DNA from: Actinomycetes bacterium
GTDB taxonomy: Bacteria; Actinomycetota; Thermoleophilia; RBG-16-64-13
Length of the DNA: 64,000 bases
Reading direction: 5' to 3'
Assembly: GCA_024637035.1 (NCBI GenBank)
Contig: JAGXFW010000015.1
Span: 62,001-126,000 of the forward strand
Shown here: piece by piece, positions 2,952 to 8,521 of the stretch
How positions within the stretch are numbered: position 1 is the first letter of the stretch
How the letters are laid out: each line of letters starts with the position of its first letter
Notes under the pieces: model-generated
Databases searched by the model: none
The model's input: the letters and a program-made list of their open reading frames with translations, nothing else
Told to the model about the DNA's origin: nothing
Made by a program: the position numbers and the translations under genes

Positions 2952-3548
2952 TCACCCGCCCGCACGCTTCCAATAGTGGCCCGTGACCATCGCCCTTGTG
3001 TACTTGAGGGGTTGGGTCAGGATCAGGTAGACGTGCAAGATGCTGAACGAGATGAACACCCACGACAGGACGTAGTGCACCTGTCGCAGGGTCATGATGC
3101 CCCCTGCGGTGTTCACGACCACCGCGAGTTGCACGGGCCAGTAGAGCGCGAAGCCCACCACCGCCATGATCGCGGAGATACCGAACAGCACGAAATACGT
3201 GATGATCTGCAGCGGGTTGTACTTGCCGAACTCCGGCTTCGTGTCGGCCAGGAACAGGTAGTACTTGAGGGTCGCTCCGGTGCCCGCCATATTGCGGGGC
3301 GTGGGCCCGGCCGAGTTCCACTTGCCCGTCGCGAAGAACTGGTACACGTGGAACACGCCGACGAAGAAGAACACGTACATGTCGACGAAATGTACGAAGC
3401 GGGCCGTGCTCATGCTGCCGAACAGGTTGAACCCAGGGAAGTGGATCTGCAGGCCCGACAGCACGAGCAGGATCATGTTCACCAAGTGCACCCAGTGCAT
3501 GAACCGCTCGATGATGTCGTGCTTCCGTATGAGCTGCAGCTTCGCCAT
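2952..3548 (-). CDS. hyaC: [NiFe] hydrogenase cytochrome b subunit
   Basis: 198 aa. Di-haem cytochrome b of the HyaC/HydC type, with about four membrane helices. His residues suited to haem ligation occur in the first helix region (ERFMHWVHLVN), in FVHFVDMYVFFFVGVFHVYQ and near the C-terminus (VHYVLSWVFISFSILHVYL). It receives electrons from the distal Fe-S cluster of the small subunit and passes them to the quinone pool. The start ATG at 3548 (MAKLQLIRKHD) is 10 bases after the true end of the large subunit. A longer reading that begins at 3602 runs through the large-subunit tail in another frame and is rejected. Confidence 0.9.
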   Translation of the reverse strand: MAKLQLIRKHDIIERFMHWVHLVNMILLVLSGLQIHFPGFNLFGSMSTARFVHFVDMYVFFFVGVFHVYQFFATGKWNSAGPTPRNMAGTGATLKYYLFLADTKPEFGKYNPLQIITYFVLFGISAIMAVVGFALYWPVQLAVVVNTAGGIMTLRQVHYVLSWVFISFSILHVYLILTQPLKYTRAMVTGHYWKRAGG

Positions 3549-3558
3549 GATCACCGGC

Positions 3559-5196
3559 CTACTTGACGCGGAACTTGAGGATCTTGTTGCTCTTCGGTTC
3601 AATCACGTGAACCGAGCAAGCCATTCAGGGGTCGAAGGAGTGTAAGGTCCGCAGTACCTCCAGGGGCCGCTCCGGATCGGCGACCGGGGTGCCCACCAGT
3701 GCCTGCTCCACCGGGCCCCGCACGCGACCGTCACCGGCCCGCGGCGCGAAGTTCCAGCCCGAAGGCGTGATGATCTGGTAGTGCTTCACCAAGCCGTCCT
3801 CGAGCGTGGCCCAATGCGCCAGCGAACCGCGCGGCGCGTCCCAGCCGCTGAAACCCTGACCCGTGGGCTTGTCCGGCACAGGCGTGTAGAAGTTCATGTC
3901 GCCCGCCGCCATGTTCGCACGGAGTTGCGCGATGTAATCGAGGGTCTTGTCGCCCACGATCTTCACCTTGAGTACCCGAGCCGCGATACGGCCGAGGTTC
4001 GAGAGGAGCACCGCCGGGTTGCCCGCTTGGCCGACGGCGGTCAGGGTGTCGTTGATGAGCTTCTTGGCCGGATGGTCCGCCGGTCCGCCGAGATAGGCCA
4101 TGAGCATCTGGGCGAGCGGGCCCACTTCCACGGGGCCGCCCTTCAGGTGCGCGCTCTTCTCCCAAGCGTAGCGACCTTCACGGTCGATCTCTCCGATGCC
4201 TTCCTTCCCGGTGAAGTCCGGGCCGGTGATGCCCTCCCACGGATGCAGAGCACCTTCGTACTGCGTGTTCCAGGAACTCGTGACCCATTCGCGGACGTCG
4301 GCCTCGTGGTCCACCTGCTGCACGTTGAGATTACCGTCGAAGGCGCCGAAGATGCCGCCCCGCGGGAAGAGACGCTTGTACGGGTCCCCACCCTCGAGGT
4401 CTTCGTCGAGGACGCCCCAACTGAAGTAGTTGCCGTGGCCCTGACCGATGCCGGCCTGGTCGAGATAGAAGGGAGCGATCGCCAGAAGATCGGGCACCAG
4501 AGTGGCGTCGATGAAGCCCTTGACTTCACGCACTTTGGCTTCGAATTGATCGATCTGATCCTGGTGTGGCACCGACGAGAACCCGCCCGGTGGGGTCGAC
4601 ATCTGGTACGGGAACTTCCCGCCGAAGAGAGCCGACGCTTCCGAGGCGACTGCCTGCACCTTGATCGATTCGAGGTAGTGCGCGGCGAGTTGCAGATTGA
4701 GCTCGGGATCGAGGGCGTAGGCCGGGTGGTCCCAGTAGCCGCTCTCGAGGAAGCCGAGCTGCCCGGAGTCCACGAAGGCCTTGAGCCGCGTCTGCACGGC
4801 CTGCATCTGAGGCGACGAGGCCTTGGCCGAGAGCGCGCTCACCACGTTCACGTAGTCGAGCCCGTTCAGGATGTAGAACCACAGCACGTGGTCGTGCAGG
4901 AGCTGAGCGCACTCCAGGAGGTTGCGCATAAGACGTCCGTTCGGCGGCGGAGAGATCCCCGCCGCGTCCTCGAGCGCCATGGCGGAATTGTGACCGTGCG
5001 GAGTGGGACAGACCCCGCACACCCTGTGCGTGTAGTGCCACGCGTCCATCCAGGGCCGGTTCTCGACGATCATCTCGAGTCCACGGAACATGGTGCTCGT
5101 GGCCCAGGCATCGACGACCTTGCCGTTCTCCACCTCCACCTCGACGCGCAGGTGACCCTCTATGCGTGTGACCGGATCGATGACGACCTTGGCCAT
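3559..5196 (-). CDS. hyaB: [NiFeSe] hydrogenase large subunit, selenocysteine-containing (UGA at 3625-3627)
   Basis: 545 aa if UGA is read as Sec. The N-terminal nickel motif is RVCGVCPTPH (Cys60, Cys63). A conventional reading ends at ...LHSFDP, just before the obligatory C-terminal DPCxxCxxH motif. Reading through the UGA gives DP-U-MAC-SVH followed by 15 more residues to a TAG, so Sec524 takes the place of the first Cys of the pair, exactly where [NiFeSe] hydrogenases carry it. His530 is where the maturation protease would cut. A hairpin follows the UGA (separate entry). The small subunit ends directly upstream and the cytochrome b starts 10 bases downstream. No maturation protease or selABCD genes are in the window. 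Confidence 0.92.
3595..3622 (-). promoter_or_regulatory. SECIS-like hairpin of the hydrogenase
   Basis: On the coding strand, 7 perfect pairs CGGTTCA/TGAACCG (3608-3614 with 3595-3601) close the 6-base loop CGTGAT. The loop starts 17 bases after the UGA, within the range usual for bacterial SECIS elements read by SelB. Weak lower pairing (GCT/AGC) is possible. The hairpin codes for protein at the same time. Confidence 0.65.
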
Positions 5197-6303
5197 CTAC
5201 TCCTCCTTCTCTTCCGCGACCGTGCCGTCGGAGTTCTTGCCGAGACGGCCTTTCATCGCGCTGACCGCGAGGTGGGCGGCGATGGCGCCGCCGGTCGCCG
5301 CGGCCAGCCCGATGCCCACGCTATCCGCACCAACACGGATCCCGCCGAAGCCCGGCACGGCGATGCCAGGCATGGGGTGGTAGAAGTCCGTCAGTTCGTC
5401 CCAGAAATCCTTCTCACTGCAGCCGATGCACTGGCCGGTGCCGATGCACCAGTTGGCCCTGTTGTTCCAGAGAACAGTTGCGCAATCGGAGTACGTGTGC
5501 GGTCCGCGACACCCCATCTTGTATAGGCAGTAGCGCTCGTTCTCCTCGGGGCTGCCCAGGACCTCGACGAACCGCCCTTCGTCGAAATGGGCGCGGCGCG
5601 GGCACTCGTCGTGCACCCTGCGGCCGAAGAACATCTTGGGCCGGCGGAACTCGTCGACCTCGGGGAGCTTGCCGTAGGAGAGGAAGTAGCTGATGGTGCT
5701 GGTGACGTGGATGGGGTTGACCGGGCATGTAGGCAACTGAACCAGCTTGCCGGTGTCGATGCCCTCTTGCTCCATGAACGCCAGCATCCCCATGGCCCCG
5801 GTGGGATTGGGATGGGCGGCCTGCACGTTGCCGAAGGATGCGCAGTTGCCTACGGCGATCACGAGAGCAGCGTCGGTGAGTGCCTCACGTGCGATATCGA
5901 CCGAAGTACGACCGGCGATGGTCATGGCGCTCGGGATCTTGGTGGCCACCGAACCCTCGACCACTAGGACGTAGGCGCCTTTGTTGTCGGCCATCGACTG
6001 CTTGAGCTTCGCCTCCGCCTGATGCCCGGCTCCGGCCATGAGGGCCTCGTTGTACTCGAGGCTGATCATGTCAAGCACGATGTTCAAGAAGTCGGGGTAG
6101 CGGCTCTTCGAGAGGGACTCAGTGCAGCCCAGGCACTCCTGGAAATCAAGCCATATGACGGGCGGCCTCTTCGCCGCCTCCTCTAGGGCCTTGGCGATGC
6201 CGGGAACGGCCGCCTGGCCCAGGCCCATGGCCGCCGCCAAGCCGCCGCAGACTTTGAGGAAATCGCGCCGGGTGAGGCCGCGCGCAGCGAGGATGTCGAT
6301 CAC
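5197..6303 (-). CDS. hyaA: [NiFe] hydrogenase small subunit, Tat-exported, membrane-anchored
   Basis: 368 aa. The Tat signal TRRDFLK (residues 11-17) is followed by a short hydrophobic stretch. Proximal cluster ligands begin with ECLGC (Cys57/60); further ligands are in GNCASFGN, LPTCPVNP, HDECPRRAHF and the C-terminal CLYKMGCRGPH, CIGTGQCIGC blocks. A hydrophobic segment near residues 325-350 is the usual anchor. It carries electrons from the active site to cytochrome b. The start GTG overlaps the stop of a 34-codon frame upstream (GTGA). The stop is directly followed by the large-subunit ATG, whose AAGGAGGAG site lies inside this gene. The Tat signal implies that the enzyme faces outside and oxidises H2. 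Confidence 0.93.
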   Translation of the reverse strand: MIDILAARGLTRRDFLKVCGGLAAAMGLGQAAVPGIAKALEEAAKRPPVIWLDFQECLGCTESLSKSRYPDFLNIVLDMISLEYNEALMAGAGHQAEAKLKQSMADNKGAYVLVVEGSVATKIPSAMTIAGRTSVDIAREALTDAALVIAVGNCASFGNVQAAHPNPTGAMGMLAFMEQEGIDTGKLVQLPTCPVNPIHVTSTISYFLSYGKLPEVDEFRRPKMFFGRRVHDECPRRAHFDEGRFVEVLGSPEENERYCLYKMGCRGPHTYSDCATVLWNNRANWCIGTGQCIGCSEKDFWDELTDFYHPMPGIAVPGFGGIRVGADSVGIGLAAATGGAIAAHLAVSAMKGRLGKNSDGTVAEEKEE

Positions 6304-6676: not shown

Positions 6677-7237
6677 TCAGAGATCGAAGTGAGAGAGTTC
6701 CTCGTCGAGGCGAGAACGTAGGGGGTCCTGGTCCGAGGATGTGCCGCGGCCGCGCACCACAACGGTCGCGGGGATGGCCTCGGCACGACCGCCGCGCCAT
6801 CTGAGCGCGAGCACTACGATGCCCGCGACCCCGAGCACGATAACGAAGGCAGGTAGAACATAGGCGAGCAGGTTGAAGCCGGTCGCCCGGGGAGCGGCGA
6901 GGATCTCCTCACCGTACTGCGCGACGAAGGTGTCGAGCACCTCGCTTTCGCCCATGCCTTGAGCCACAAGGAGGCGCACCTGCGCCTTGAGCTGTTCGGC
7001 CGTCTCACTGTCGTGCACTGCGATAGTCTGGGTCCAGCAGCACGGAGAGATGAGCTTTCCATCGAGGTCGGAGGCCAGCGACAGCTGCTGCTGAGTCAGT
7101 TCGGCCGCGGATGCGGTTGCGGGGGCGCCAAGAGAGAACACGAGCAACGACGCGATGGCCACAAGCGTGGCCCACACCCGCGCATTCCTGGAGCCTGCCG
7201 CTGCATCATCCGCGCTTCGATCCGACTTGTCTCTCAT
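6677..7237 (-). CDS. CcmH/NrfF-like cytochrome c maturation protein, variant Cys-Cys motif
   Basis: 186 aa. A signal-anchor at about residues 20-46 precedes a CcmH-like domain with SPCCWTQT and the helical block ending VAQYGEEILAAP. A second membrane helix follows (LLAYVLPAFVIVLGVAGIVV), then a basic tail. Classical CcmH proteins have LRCxxCQ and handle the haem-binding cysteines of apocytochrome c; here the two Cys are adjacent. The start at 7237 has GGAGGT upstream; longer readings lack a site. It follows the trxA/selenoprotein/zinc-ribbon genes with a 90-base gap. The octahaem cytochrome at 17-18.8 kb is a possible client. No other ccm gene is in the window. Confidence 0.75.
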   Translation of the reverse strand: MRDKSDRSADDAAAGSRNARVWATLVAIASLLVFSLGAPATASAAELTQQQLSLASDLDGKLISPCCWTQTIAVHDSETAEQLKAQVRLLVAQGMGESEVLDTFVAQYGEEILAAPRATGFNLLAYVLPAFVIVLGVAGIVVLALRWRGGRAEAIPATVVVRGRGTSSDQDPLRSRLDEELSHFDL

Positions 7238-7326
7238 CTTCGCTACCTCCGCAACATCCGCCGTGGCCCGCGCGGGCCGAGAAGAATATGTCCGGGGGCC
7301 CCACGGGCCCCCATCGTTCAGTGCGC

Positions 7327-7545
7327 TCAGCCAAAGCCGCCGTGCGAACAGCCTGATGGCGGGGCGGAGGCGCACGCCACCGCGTCACGCGCTCCCATCG
7401 AGCCCATCATGAACCCGGTGAAGAGCTGCTCCACATCGGAACTGCCGCAGTCGGGGCACACGCGCTGCTGGTCTTTCAGGAAGCCCTGCACGAACACTTC
7501 GAACTGCCGCCCGCAGCCAGAGCACTTGAGATCATACGAAGCCAT
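7327..7545 (-). CDS. FmdB-type zinc-ribbon protein
   Basis: 72 aa. The N-terminus MASYDLKCSGCGRQFEV with the later CPDCGSS forms the paired CxxC zinc ribbon of the FmdB/CxxC_CxxC_SSSS family of putative regulatory proteins. The tail is Gly/Ser/Ala-rich with two more Cys and the ending SGCSHGGFG. It starts 2 bases after the stop of the selenoprotein gene, so the two are surely cotranscribed. Function is unknown; the redox neighbourhood suggests a zinc or redox switch (inference). Confidence 0.82.
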   Translation of the reverse strand: MASYDLKCSGCGRQFEVFVQGFLKDQQRVCPDCGSSDVEQLFTGFMMGSMGARDAVACASAPPSGCSHGGFG

Positions 7546-7547
7546 GT

Positions 7548-7874
7548 CTACAGGACCCCCAATACCTTGAACTCATTGACGATCCACGCGAACGACAGAG
7601 CCGCGGGCGACTTCACCGTATCGCCCACCAACACGAGCGGGACACCGCGGCCGAGTTCCACCGCCTCGGCCAAGGCGGGATACTCATTCAGGGCGGGGCT
7701 ATCGATATCGATGTAGCCCACACTCACGTGCTCGCCGTAGTCTTGCTGCAGGTAGCGGTTGATGTAGCCGACCGTCTCTTCCAGAGACAGAGGGGGCGCT
7801 CAGCCACCTCCGCGGCACGCATCGAACATGCGCGAGCCTGCGACGACCATCTCACCAGTCTTGACTGTACTCAT
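7548..7874 (-). CDS. YuzD-like thioredoxin-fold selenoprotein (UGA at 7800-7802)
   Basis: 108 aa when the in-frame UGA is read as Sec25. The frame is otherwise open from an ATG with a good GGAGGT site, 20 bases after trxA, to a TAG 2 bases before the zinc-ribbon gene, so it fills the operon slot exactly. The site reads ACRGGGU. Downstream, GYIDIDSP and VPLVLVGD match my memory of the YIDI and PLVLV blocks of Bacillus YuzD (DUF1462, thioredoxin fold), and the spacing from U to the first helix matches YuzD's second Cys. A hairpin follows the UGA. A thiol/selenol oxidoreductase working with the adjacent thioredoxin is likely. The alternative is a pseudogene with one stop, which the intact remainder argues against. 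Confidence 0.8.
7772..7802 (-). promoter_or_regulatory. SECIS-like hairpin of the YuzD-like selenoprotein
   Basis: On the coding strand CTGTCTCT (7783-7790) pairs with AGAGACGG (7772-7779) through seven Watson-Crick pairs and one G-U, closing a GGA loop. The loop starts 17 bases after the UGA, the same distance as in the hydrogenase gene. Confidence 0.62.
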
Positions 7875-7894
7875 AGTGCTGACCTCCTCGGACC

Positions 7895-8221
7895 TCAAGC
7901 GAGGCCGAACTCGCGCTCGTAGTCCTTCTGGCTACGCGCGCCGATAAGCTGCTGCTTGACCTTCCCACCTTCGAACAGGATCACGGTCGGGATGCTCATG
8001 ATGCCGAACTTGGCGGCGAGCTCCTGGTTCTCGTCAACGTTGACCTTGACGACTTTCGCCTTGCCTTCGTGTTCAGCGGCGAGTTTCTCGAGCACCGGCC
8101 CGACCATCTTGCACGGTCCGCACCAGGGAGCCCAGAAGTCGACTATCACCGAGCCGCCGGCCGCCAGTACAGCGGCGTCGAACGATTCAGCATTCAGATC
8201 CTCGACGATATCACTGCCCAT
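7895..8221 (-). CDS. trxA: Thioredoxin
   Basis: 108 aa, the usual length. Classical active site WAPWCGPCKM and cis-Pro segment MSIPTVILF. It reduces protein disulfides in the cytoplasm. The ATG at 8221 has an AAGGAGAGG site; longer readings upstream run through promoter DNA. It is the first gene of a tight cluster with the YuzD-like selenoprotein and the FmdB zinc ribbon, which may be its partners. A CsoR-like inverted repeat lies about 135 bases upstream. Confidence 0.97.
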   Translation of the reverse strand: MGSDIVEDLNAESFDAAVLAAGGSVIVDFWAPWCGPCKMVGPVLEKLAAEHEGKAKVVKVNVDENQELAAKFGIMSIPTVILFEGGKVKQQLIGARSQKDYEREFGLA

Positions 8222-8355
8222 GTCTCTTGCCTCTCCTTCTCTCGTTGCGTCCGGACGACCCTCCCCTGCTGAACGCCACGATACGAAGGTGGCCACAGGC
8301 GACACGTTGCCCGACATCTCGAACCTCGCCCGCGAACGGGACGTCCGGCCCGACG

Positions 8356-8372
8356 TATACCCAGAGGGGTAT
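8356..8372. promoter_or_regulatory. CsoR-family-like operator upstream of trxA
   Basis: ATACCC-AGAG-GGGTAT (8357-8362, 8367-8372) is a perfect 6-bp inverted repeat of the A/T-flanked G-tract type bound by CsoR/CstR/RcnR repressors. On the minus strand it lies between a TTGCTA and a TATACG that could be -35 and -10 boxes, although 15 bases is a short spacer. A csoR gene is 1.3 kb away. Control by copper or by persulfide is inferred. Confidence 0.5.
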
Positions 8373-8521
8373 TTTAGCAAGCGGGCCGATCACACACAAG
8401 GGAACCCGACAACCCGATGGTGCCCCCGAGGTGACACCCTCAGTCTACCCCCGTTCCGGGCGACCATAACAGACGGGGCGAGTCGTGTGTCGCGGCGCGC
8501 AGTCCGACAGCCAGGGTTCGG

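Follow-up and report, generated by a model that had tools for sequence, protein, structure and literature searches.

Is the UGA codon inside a short frame between a thioredoxin gene and a zinc-ribbon gene read as selenocysteine (Sec), and if so, what kind of protein results? The question is raised by positions 7548–7874 of the window, which here means the whole 64,000-nt stretch of Thermoleophilia DNA that was analysed. An earlier sequence-only reading had proposed a YuzD-like selenoprotein at this place. It described a frame with one in-frame UGA and its own ribosome site, fitting between trxA and the zinc-ribbon gene (fmdB). The coordinates are right, and the strand, which that reading omitted, is the minus strand (Table 1). 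The trxA stop lies 20 nt upstream, the fmdB ATG follows 2 nt downstream, and the GAGGAGG sequence stands 8 nt 5′ of the ATG. Translation from 7874 to 7548 with UGA as U gives MSTVKTGEMVVAGSRMFDACRGGGUAPPLSLEETVGYINRYLQQDYGEHVSVGYIDIDSPALNEYPALAEAVELGRGVPLVLVGDTVKSPAALSFAWIVNEFKVLGVL*, where codon 25 is the sole in-frame UGA and the ACRGGGU of the earlier reading is recovered. The ORF containing trxA (7895–8380) scores 119 bits with TIGR01068 (cut-off 96.8).

Table 1. Positions of the predicted selenoprotein genes, their signals and flanking genes in the window
Feature	Position	Strand	Basis or remark
trxA, thioredoxin with WCGPC, first gene of the trio	7895..8221	(-)	TIGR01068
GAGGAGG ribosome-binding site of the selenoprotein gene	7883..7889	(-)	read from sequence
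DUF1462-like thioredoxin-fold selenoprotein gene (predicted)	7548..7874	(-)	108 aa, Sec25; homologue alignments and predicted fold
UGA codon for Sec25 (predicted)	7800..7802	(-)	U in the 30 Sec-type rows of A3 and in all 24 genome-scan matches
SECIS hairpin (predicted), CUGUCUCU-GGA-AGAGACGG	7772..7790	(-)	8 pairs; apical loop 17 nt after UGA
fmdB, zinc-ribbon protein, 75 aa, ...SGCSHGGFG-U-A-H-stop (Sec proposed)	7318..7545	(-)	TIGR02605, 43.6 bits (cut-off 31.3)
UGA for proposed C-terminal Sec of FmdB	7327..7329	(-)	next in-frame stop TGA 7318-7320
SECIS-like hairpin of fmdB, UGGGGGCCC-GUG-GGGCCCCCG	7293..7313	(-)	past the final stop; bSECIS criteria
CcmH-like gene, downstream context	6677..7237	(-)	PF03918, E=1.8e-20
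[NiFe] hydrogenase small/large subunit and cytochrome b operon	2952-6303	(-)	3′ of the selenoprotein operon, same strand

Evidence for selenocysteine at UGA25

A homologue was found in 20 of 61 relatives' genomes, and all 21 copies contain exactly one TGA at identities down to 33%; in their alignment (A1) the TGA falls in a single column in 20 of 20 sequences. Sampling of 399 genomes of the class yielded 28 copies in 27 genomes, each again with exactly one TGA, in only two families, f1 (that of the window) and f6. About 85,000 genomes were then scanned with a motif pattern accepting TGA, TGC or TGT at the Sec site. The 24 matches all have TGA and are all members of the selenoprotein family. 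A Cys-only pattern had one match in the genome contig collection, which is unrelated and not a Cys relative, and the plasmid collection gave no match to the family. Because the scan pattern was built on the family's own motif, diverged Cys homologues could have escaped it, and two such distant relatives do exist (L062 and L066). The earlier reading had advised looking for homologues with Cys at this position: in f1 and f6 every relative found has UGA there and none has Cys, which was seen in the two distant relatives. Homologues carrying neither residue, which it had named as counter-evidence, were not encountered; the site is occupied by Sec, or by Cys in distant members.

The bases 3′ of the UGA are also conserved at the level of codons. 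Codons just past it are frozen (Ser TCT 25/25, Leu CTG 25/25, Glu GAA 22/25, Glu GAG 25/25), whereas the invariant Pro two codons past the UGA uses all four of its codons. TCT, the codon of Ser30, accounts for 10% of Ser codons at other places in the family's genes. The frozen bases pair into a hairpin whose loop, GGA or GGC, lies 17 nt past the UGA (20 nt in the distant family f25, described below). Among 27 distinct sequences, 98.6% of the hairpin cells are paired against 86.4% in shuffles, 29 cells against 11.4 are changed on both sides, and the covariation score is 0.463 against 0.219; none of 500 shuffles was as high on these three measures. The shuffle control leaves relatedness in. The control that removes it, sliding the pairing partner, abolishes the signal. 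The same eight pairs are recovered independently by RNAalifold. Published bSECIS criteria place the hairpin 16–37 nt after the UGA and ask for G in the first two positions of its loop (PMC13188914). They are passed by 24 of 30 selenoprotein sequences compared with 7.4% of synonymous randomisations; the other six fail the energy limit.

The decoding genes are present in the window's genome, as the earlier reading required: tRNA-Sec (C26:51100), selA (C26:23240), selB (C26:24690) and selD (C7:14250). SelB scores above the cut-off in 18 of 20 carrier genomes. One of the two exceptions, G004 (76% complete), has tRNA-Sec. In the other, G007 (320 contigs, 93% complete, 7% contaminated), neither SelB nor tRNA-Sec was found. 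G007 has both the selenoprotein and a Sec-type fmdB despite the lack of detected sel genes. As a separate observation, selD of the window's genome (G000:C7:14250-15176, L117) contains an in-frame TGA and reads SHGSGUACK, so that SelD itself is a Sec protein.

An in-frame UGA with coding conservation on both sides, a SECIS hairpin, and a genome with SelA, SelB, SelD and tRNA-Sec, by which a bacterial selenoprotein is recognised, are thus all found. The invariant UGA, the covarying SECIS and the complete sel gene set support the prediction that 7548–7874 encodes a selenoprotein, and judged from the sequences this UGA-containing frame is far beyond chance. Gene callers had been expected to miss it. 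An automatic annotation by the standard code would indeed end at the UGA and cut the gene short, which is the point in favour of an ordinary stop. Nevertheless, the same UGA recurs in all copies across many genera with the protein conserved on either side and a covarying SECIS, and distant relatives have Cys at the site, and it is extremely improbable that the codon is an ordinary stop, a sequencing error, a decayed codon or Trp. Decoding as Trp was rejected since genes of the same operon, and relatives' copies of the selenoprotein gene, terminate in UGA.

Relation to DUF1462 and the thioredoxin fold

The resemblance to YuzD/DUF1462 put forward by the sequence-only reading stands as homology, but not as strict membership of PF07315. 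With Sec written as Cys or X, the window protein matched nothing in Pfam or NCBIfam, and the NCBIfam selenoprotein models did not match the family at E up to 1. PF07315 did not match the window protein, and the best of the 20 A1 members reached E=0.0086. A PDB search with the window protein alone, or with A1, found nothing meaningful. The connection comes from a search of the phylum with A1, which detected distant UGA relatives in families f47 (L063–L065, CFSGGUGPSW) and f25 (L067 and L068, CGFGUGSYG), and the distant Cys relatives L062 (CNICGS) and L066 (CNCSCG). PF07315 matches six of these seven distant relatives at E ≤0.1. The f47 relatives and L062 exceed the Pfam gathering cut-off, L063 with 34.9 bits (cut-off 25; E=2e-8) and L062 barely, while the window protein does not. 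The profile check that had been recommended for the masked 108-aa product is therefore blank for the window protein alone and positive through its distant relatives. Because the window protein fails the Pfam model, it is named DUF1462-like.

A1 aligns with the distant set A4 at 99.1% probability in hhalign. Of the 32 rows in the joint alignment A3, 30 have U at the Sec position and two have Cys; all 32 share Pro79, the predicted cis-Pro. The A3 profile has as its best PDB match 1xg8, a solved DUF1462 protein (E=3.1e-5, over 11–105), and the Sec column falls on the second Cys of its CASC, where the earlier reading had placed it by spacing. AlphaFold on A3 gave a model of pLDDT 89.2 and pTM 0.81 with the order strand-helix-strand-helix-strand-strand-helix, which is the thioredoxin order; the loop that holds Sec25, just before helix 31–46, is modelled with lower confidence (block 59). 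Ranked by E-value, a Foldseek search of the PDB with the model is led by thioredoxins (2e-3; no match falls below 1e-3). By TM-score, 1xg8 leads the 50 matches listed, with 0.59. The fold is also like that of thioredoxin itself (TM about 0.45–0.50), although neither a match to the PF00085 family nor WCxxC is found. DUF1462 and ArsD have both been assigned to the thioredoxin-like clan (PMC3091736). Profile-level homology together with a shared fold supports, from alignments and modelling, the relation of the selenoprotein to DUF1462/YuzD through more distant selenoprotein relatives.

Compared with DUF1462/YuzD (PF07315; 1xg8 is S. aureus SA0798), the family has a thioredoxin-like fold, a similar length, the YIDI block and the conserved Pro before the third strand. 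It differs in having Sec for Cys, and in a first Cys that is missing or stands farther off, the spacing being C-x4-U in the window protein and C-x3-U in f6. The remark of the earlier reading that CRGGGU departs from CxxC was correct, and the first Cys is not conserved: the window protein shares Cys20 with most relatives, but L018, L019 and L020 have Thr or Trp there. Sec must therefore be able to work without Cys20, and a CxxU-like internal pair is not the rule. Thioredoxin-like selenoproteins with UxxC or CxxU likewise have a thioredoxin fold whose first long helix is preceded by a loop with a redox Sec, but both motifs are absent here and the Cys is not conserved. ArsD (PF06953) shares the thioredoxin fold. 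The window protein does not match its profile, whereas distant relatives show weak similarity below the cut-off.

NCBIfam (June 2026) holds neither a model for this selenoprotein family nor one for a Sec-specific FmdB. The 2026 catalogue lists 119 selenoprotein families (PMC13188914), and neither the DUF1462-like selenoprotein nor the FmdB tail family discussed below was found in it. A literature search on DUF1462/YuzD selenoproteins, Sec in Thermoleophilia and Sec in FmdB gave nothing relevant except a marine FmdB CxxU report; Haft and Tolstoy 2025 lay outside the comparison. We regard the DUF1462-like selenoprotein as a new family within a fold group that is already known, next to which a second, so far hidden selenoprotein appears to be encoded. 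It would extend the catalogue of about 119 families by one, from Thermoleophilia and their relatives, in which selenoproteins have been little studied, and would bring Sec into the uncharacterised group of thioredoxin-fold proteins to which YuzD belongs. The lack of exchange between Sec and Cys is uncommon among bacterial selenoproteins. Within f1 and f6 no change from Sec to Cys is seen, which suggests that the chemistry needs selenium.

Two further observations concern DUF1462-like proteins beyond the carrier families. L063–L065, L067 and L068 (neighbourhoods L089–L091, L094 and L095) are DUF1462-like selenoproteins outside the window's class. In genome G105, which has the second-position Sec form L068, another DUF1462-like frame around 1500–1760 on the minus strand (L122) reads VPSGURSCISASGDKEF, with UGA at the first motif position (UxxC).

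The FmdB tail as a candidate second selenoprotein

The sequence-only reading overlooked a possible Sec tail in the next gene of the operon. Its product exceeds the TIGR02605 cut-off and has the two CxxC pairs of an FmdB zinc ribbon. In f1, 16 of 16 fmdB genes end GF(G/S)-TGA-(A/G)-x-stop, with the stop at codon +3, and the same tail is present in four genomes of the family with SelB but without the upstream selenoprotein. Similarly, the orthologous fmdB of f3 and f6 genomes with SelB ends TGA-Gly-stop in 8 of 8 (stop at codon +2). In SelB-negative genomes (f2, and G009 of f1, where tRNA-Sec is missing as well) FmdB has a tail with Cys, for instance CGCGGH, CCGGACGGH or CCNCGGLN, and no such TGA tail; the exception is an f2 paralogue (L148) with TGA-Pro-stop, by chance.

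Hairpins 3′ of fmdB carry G-U in the apical loop (GUG, GUU, CGUGC, GGUC, GUA) on very different stems. Of the 24 Sec-type genes (window, L069–L079, L124–L127, L130, L132, L134, L138, L140, L143, L144 and L150), 19 have a hairpin that passes the bSECIS criteria, compared with 1 of 11 from SelB-negative genomes and 12–14% of shuffles; since the genomes are related, these counts, like those of the tails, do not amount to independent trials. A UGA-x-stop or UGA-x-x-stop ending with a SECIS is thus confined to Sec-decoding genomes, except for the carrier G007, which has no detectable sel genes. From these patterns fmdB appears to encode a second selenoprotein with a C-terminal tail, GFG-U-A-H-stop. 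Where the final stop after such a TGA is itself a TGA, as in the window, we infer from the loop spacing, which favours the first TGA, that this one is Sec.

Two simpler accounts of the 3′ end were rejected. The tandem stop is not mere back-up termination, since tail and hairpin track SelB, and an intrinsic terminator is not the sole cause of the hairpin, since the G-U apical loop recurs while the stems differ. It is possible that the hairpin has a double role and also serves as a terminator.

An FmdB-family selenoprotein is known from the marine Global Ocean Sampling data, with Sec in a CxxU motif (PMC2398784). It belongs to the same zinc-ribbon family, but in the protein described here the metal-binding Cys are intact and Sec would lie in the C-terminal tail. 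The UXX-star selenoproteins (NF041114 and NF041211) similarly have Sec two residues before the stop, and NF041211 is listed with GxGU, but neither model matches the FmdB protein. The tail would represent a selenoprotein class that gene finders do not flag, because the loss is limited to the last two or three residues. It would also make the function of the widespread FmdB zinc ribbons, as redox partners of TrxA, directly testable.

Neighbourhoods and possible functions

In f1 the trio trxA-selenoprotein-fmdB is kept at every carrier locus whose contig reaches far enough. The neighbourhood that the earlier reading expected in homologues therefore holds wherever it can be seen in f1, while the f6 copies are placed elsewhere. 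The CcmH-like gene and the [NiFe] hydrogenase operon stay with the selenoprotein operon in six f1 loci, including that of the window. The four f1 genomes with SelB that lack the selenoprotein have trxA and fmdB, so that the selenoprotein is not essential to this pair. Moreover, trxA is upstream of fmdB in 7 of 10 loci of SelB-negative f2 genomes; the adjacency of FmdB and TrxA is therefore older and broader than the selenoprotein. The selenoprotein gene of f6 (L080–L087) has a same-strand ThiI/MnmA-like PP-loop gene with an NFACT-R_2 domain upstream, and at most of these loci a 2-thiouracil desulfurase (DUF523) gene is upstream as well. The Sec-type fmdB of f6 is elsewhere in the genome and is followed by trxA on the same strand. 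TrxA is thus not a universal neighbour of the selenoprotein. In f47 and f25 a small ferredoxin gene precedes the selenoprotein gene.

The computational support extends over Sec decoding, the fold, the Sec position, the operon, and the linkage of the selenoprotein and FmdB to trxA. From these we infer TrxA as the reductant, Sec25 as the attacking selenolate, cooperation with FmdB, and the substrate class. The reading that we favour, at slightly better than even chances, is that the selenoprotein is a small cytoplasmic thioredoxin-fold selenol oxidoreductase, dependent on TrxA and acting with TrxA and FmdB. UGA25 would be decoded by SelB and tRNA-Sec by use of the SECIS hairpin 17 nt downstream. 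Sec25, taking the place of the second Cys in the DUF1462 CxxC, would sit in the active-site loop that joins the first strand to the first long helix, and would face the region of the conserved cis-Pro79. Its selenolate would attack an oxidised substrate, which may be a disulfide, a persulfide or a peroxide. The oxidised selenium would then be reduced by Cys20, or by the thiols of the neighbouring TrxA in relatives without Cys20. The FmdB zinc ribbon with its Gly-Phe-Gly-Sec-Ala-His tail is probably a second TrxA-linked partner in the same unit. Three facts weigh against an oxidoreductase of this kind: the position of the f6 gene beside ThiI/MnmA-like and 2-thiouracil desulfurase genes and away from trxA, the four f1 genomes with SelB that have trxA and fmdB without the selenoprotein, and the carrier G007, which shows neither SelB nor tRNA-Sec.

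Tentatively, and with the odds against it, trxA, the DUF1462-like selenoprotein and the Sec-tailed FmdB could form a dedicated selenium redox unit. TrxA would feed electrons to both selenoproteins, and FmdB, its Sec tail being mobile after the model of the tail of mammalian thioredoxin reductase, would possibly be a redox-controlled zinc-ribbon regulator. Such a two-selenoprotein system, if real, would be new. Poorly known soil and subsurface bacteria seem to possess an undescribed selenium-based redox unit beside thioredoxin.

Alternatively, Sec25 may accept sulfur as a selenenyl-sulfide and pass it to a tRNA-thiolating enzyme or another acceptor, TrxA serving only for regeneration. The tRNA-thiolation context in f6, where the PP-loop gene with NFACT-R_2 and mostly the 2-thiouracil desulfurase gene share the strand, makes such a sulfur or selenium carrier the main rival to the oxidoreductase, and the three relatives without any Cys before Sec would suit a carrier that needs a single residue. 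Nevertheless, the f1, f47 and f25 genes have no tRNA-thiolation neighbours nearby, and we consider this function unlikely.

We give a still smaller chance to a function akin to that of ArsD, with the protein carrying a metal or metalloid and its selenolate binding As(III), Hg or a similar soft ion. The weak similarity of distant relatives to ArsD (PF06953, E=0.0059) points in this direction, as does, by eye, the position of the Cys relative L066 next to an apparent arsenite methyltransferase gene and ArsR-like regulators. ArsD, however, requires three Cys for metal binding. These three are absent here, where the protein has one Cys and one Sec, or Sec alone in three relatives, nor were arsenic genes noticed around the window copy. 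A selenium peroxidase of GPx or peroxiredoxin type with TrxA as electron donor would fit the lone Sec, the thioredoxin fold and the adjacent trxA, but it is the least probable of these functions, since no similarity to either family was found, the typical active-site motifs are absent, and the best-scoring relatives are DUF1462 proteins and thioredoxins. At the locus of the Cys relative (L066, neighbourhood L093), whose motif reads CNCSCGGYGC, other probable arsenic genes were also recognised by eye.
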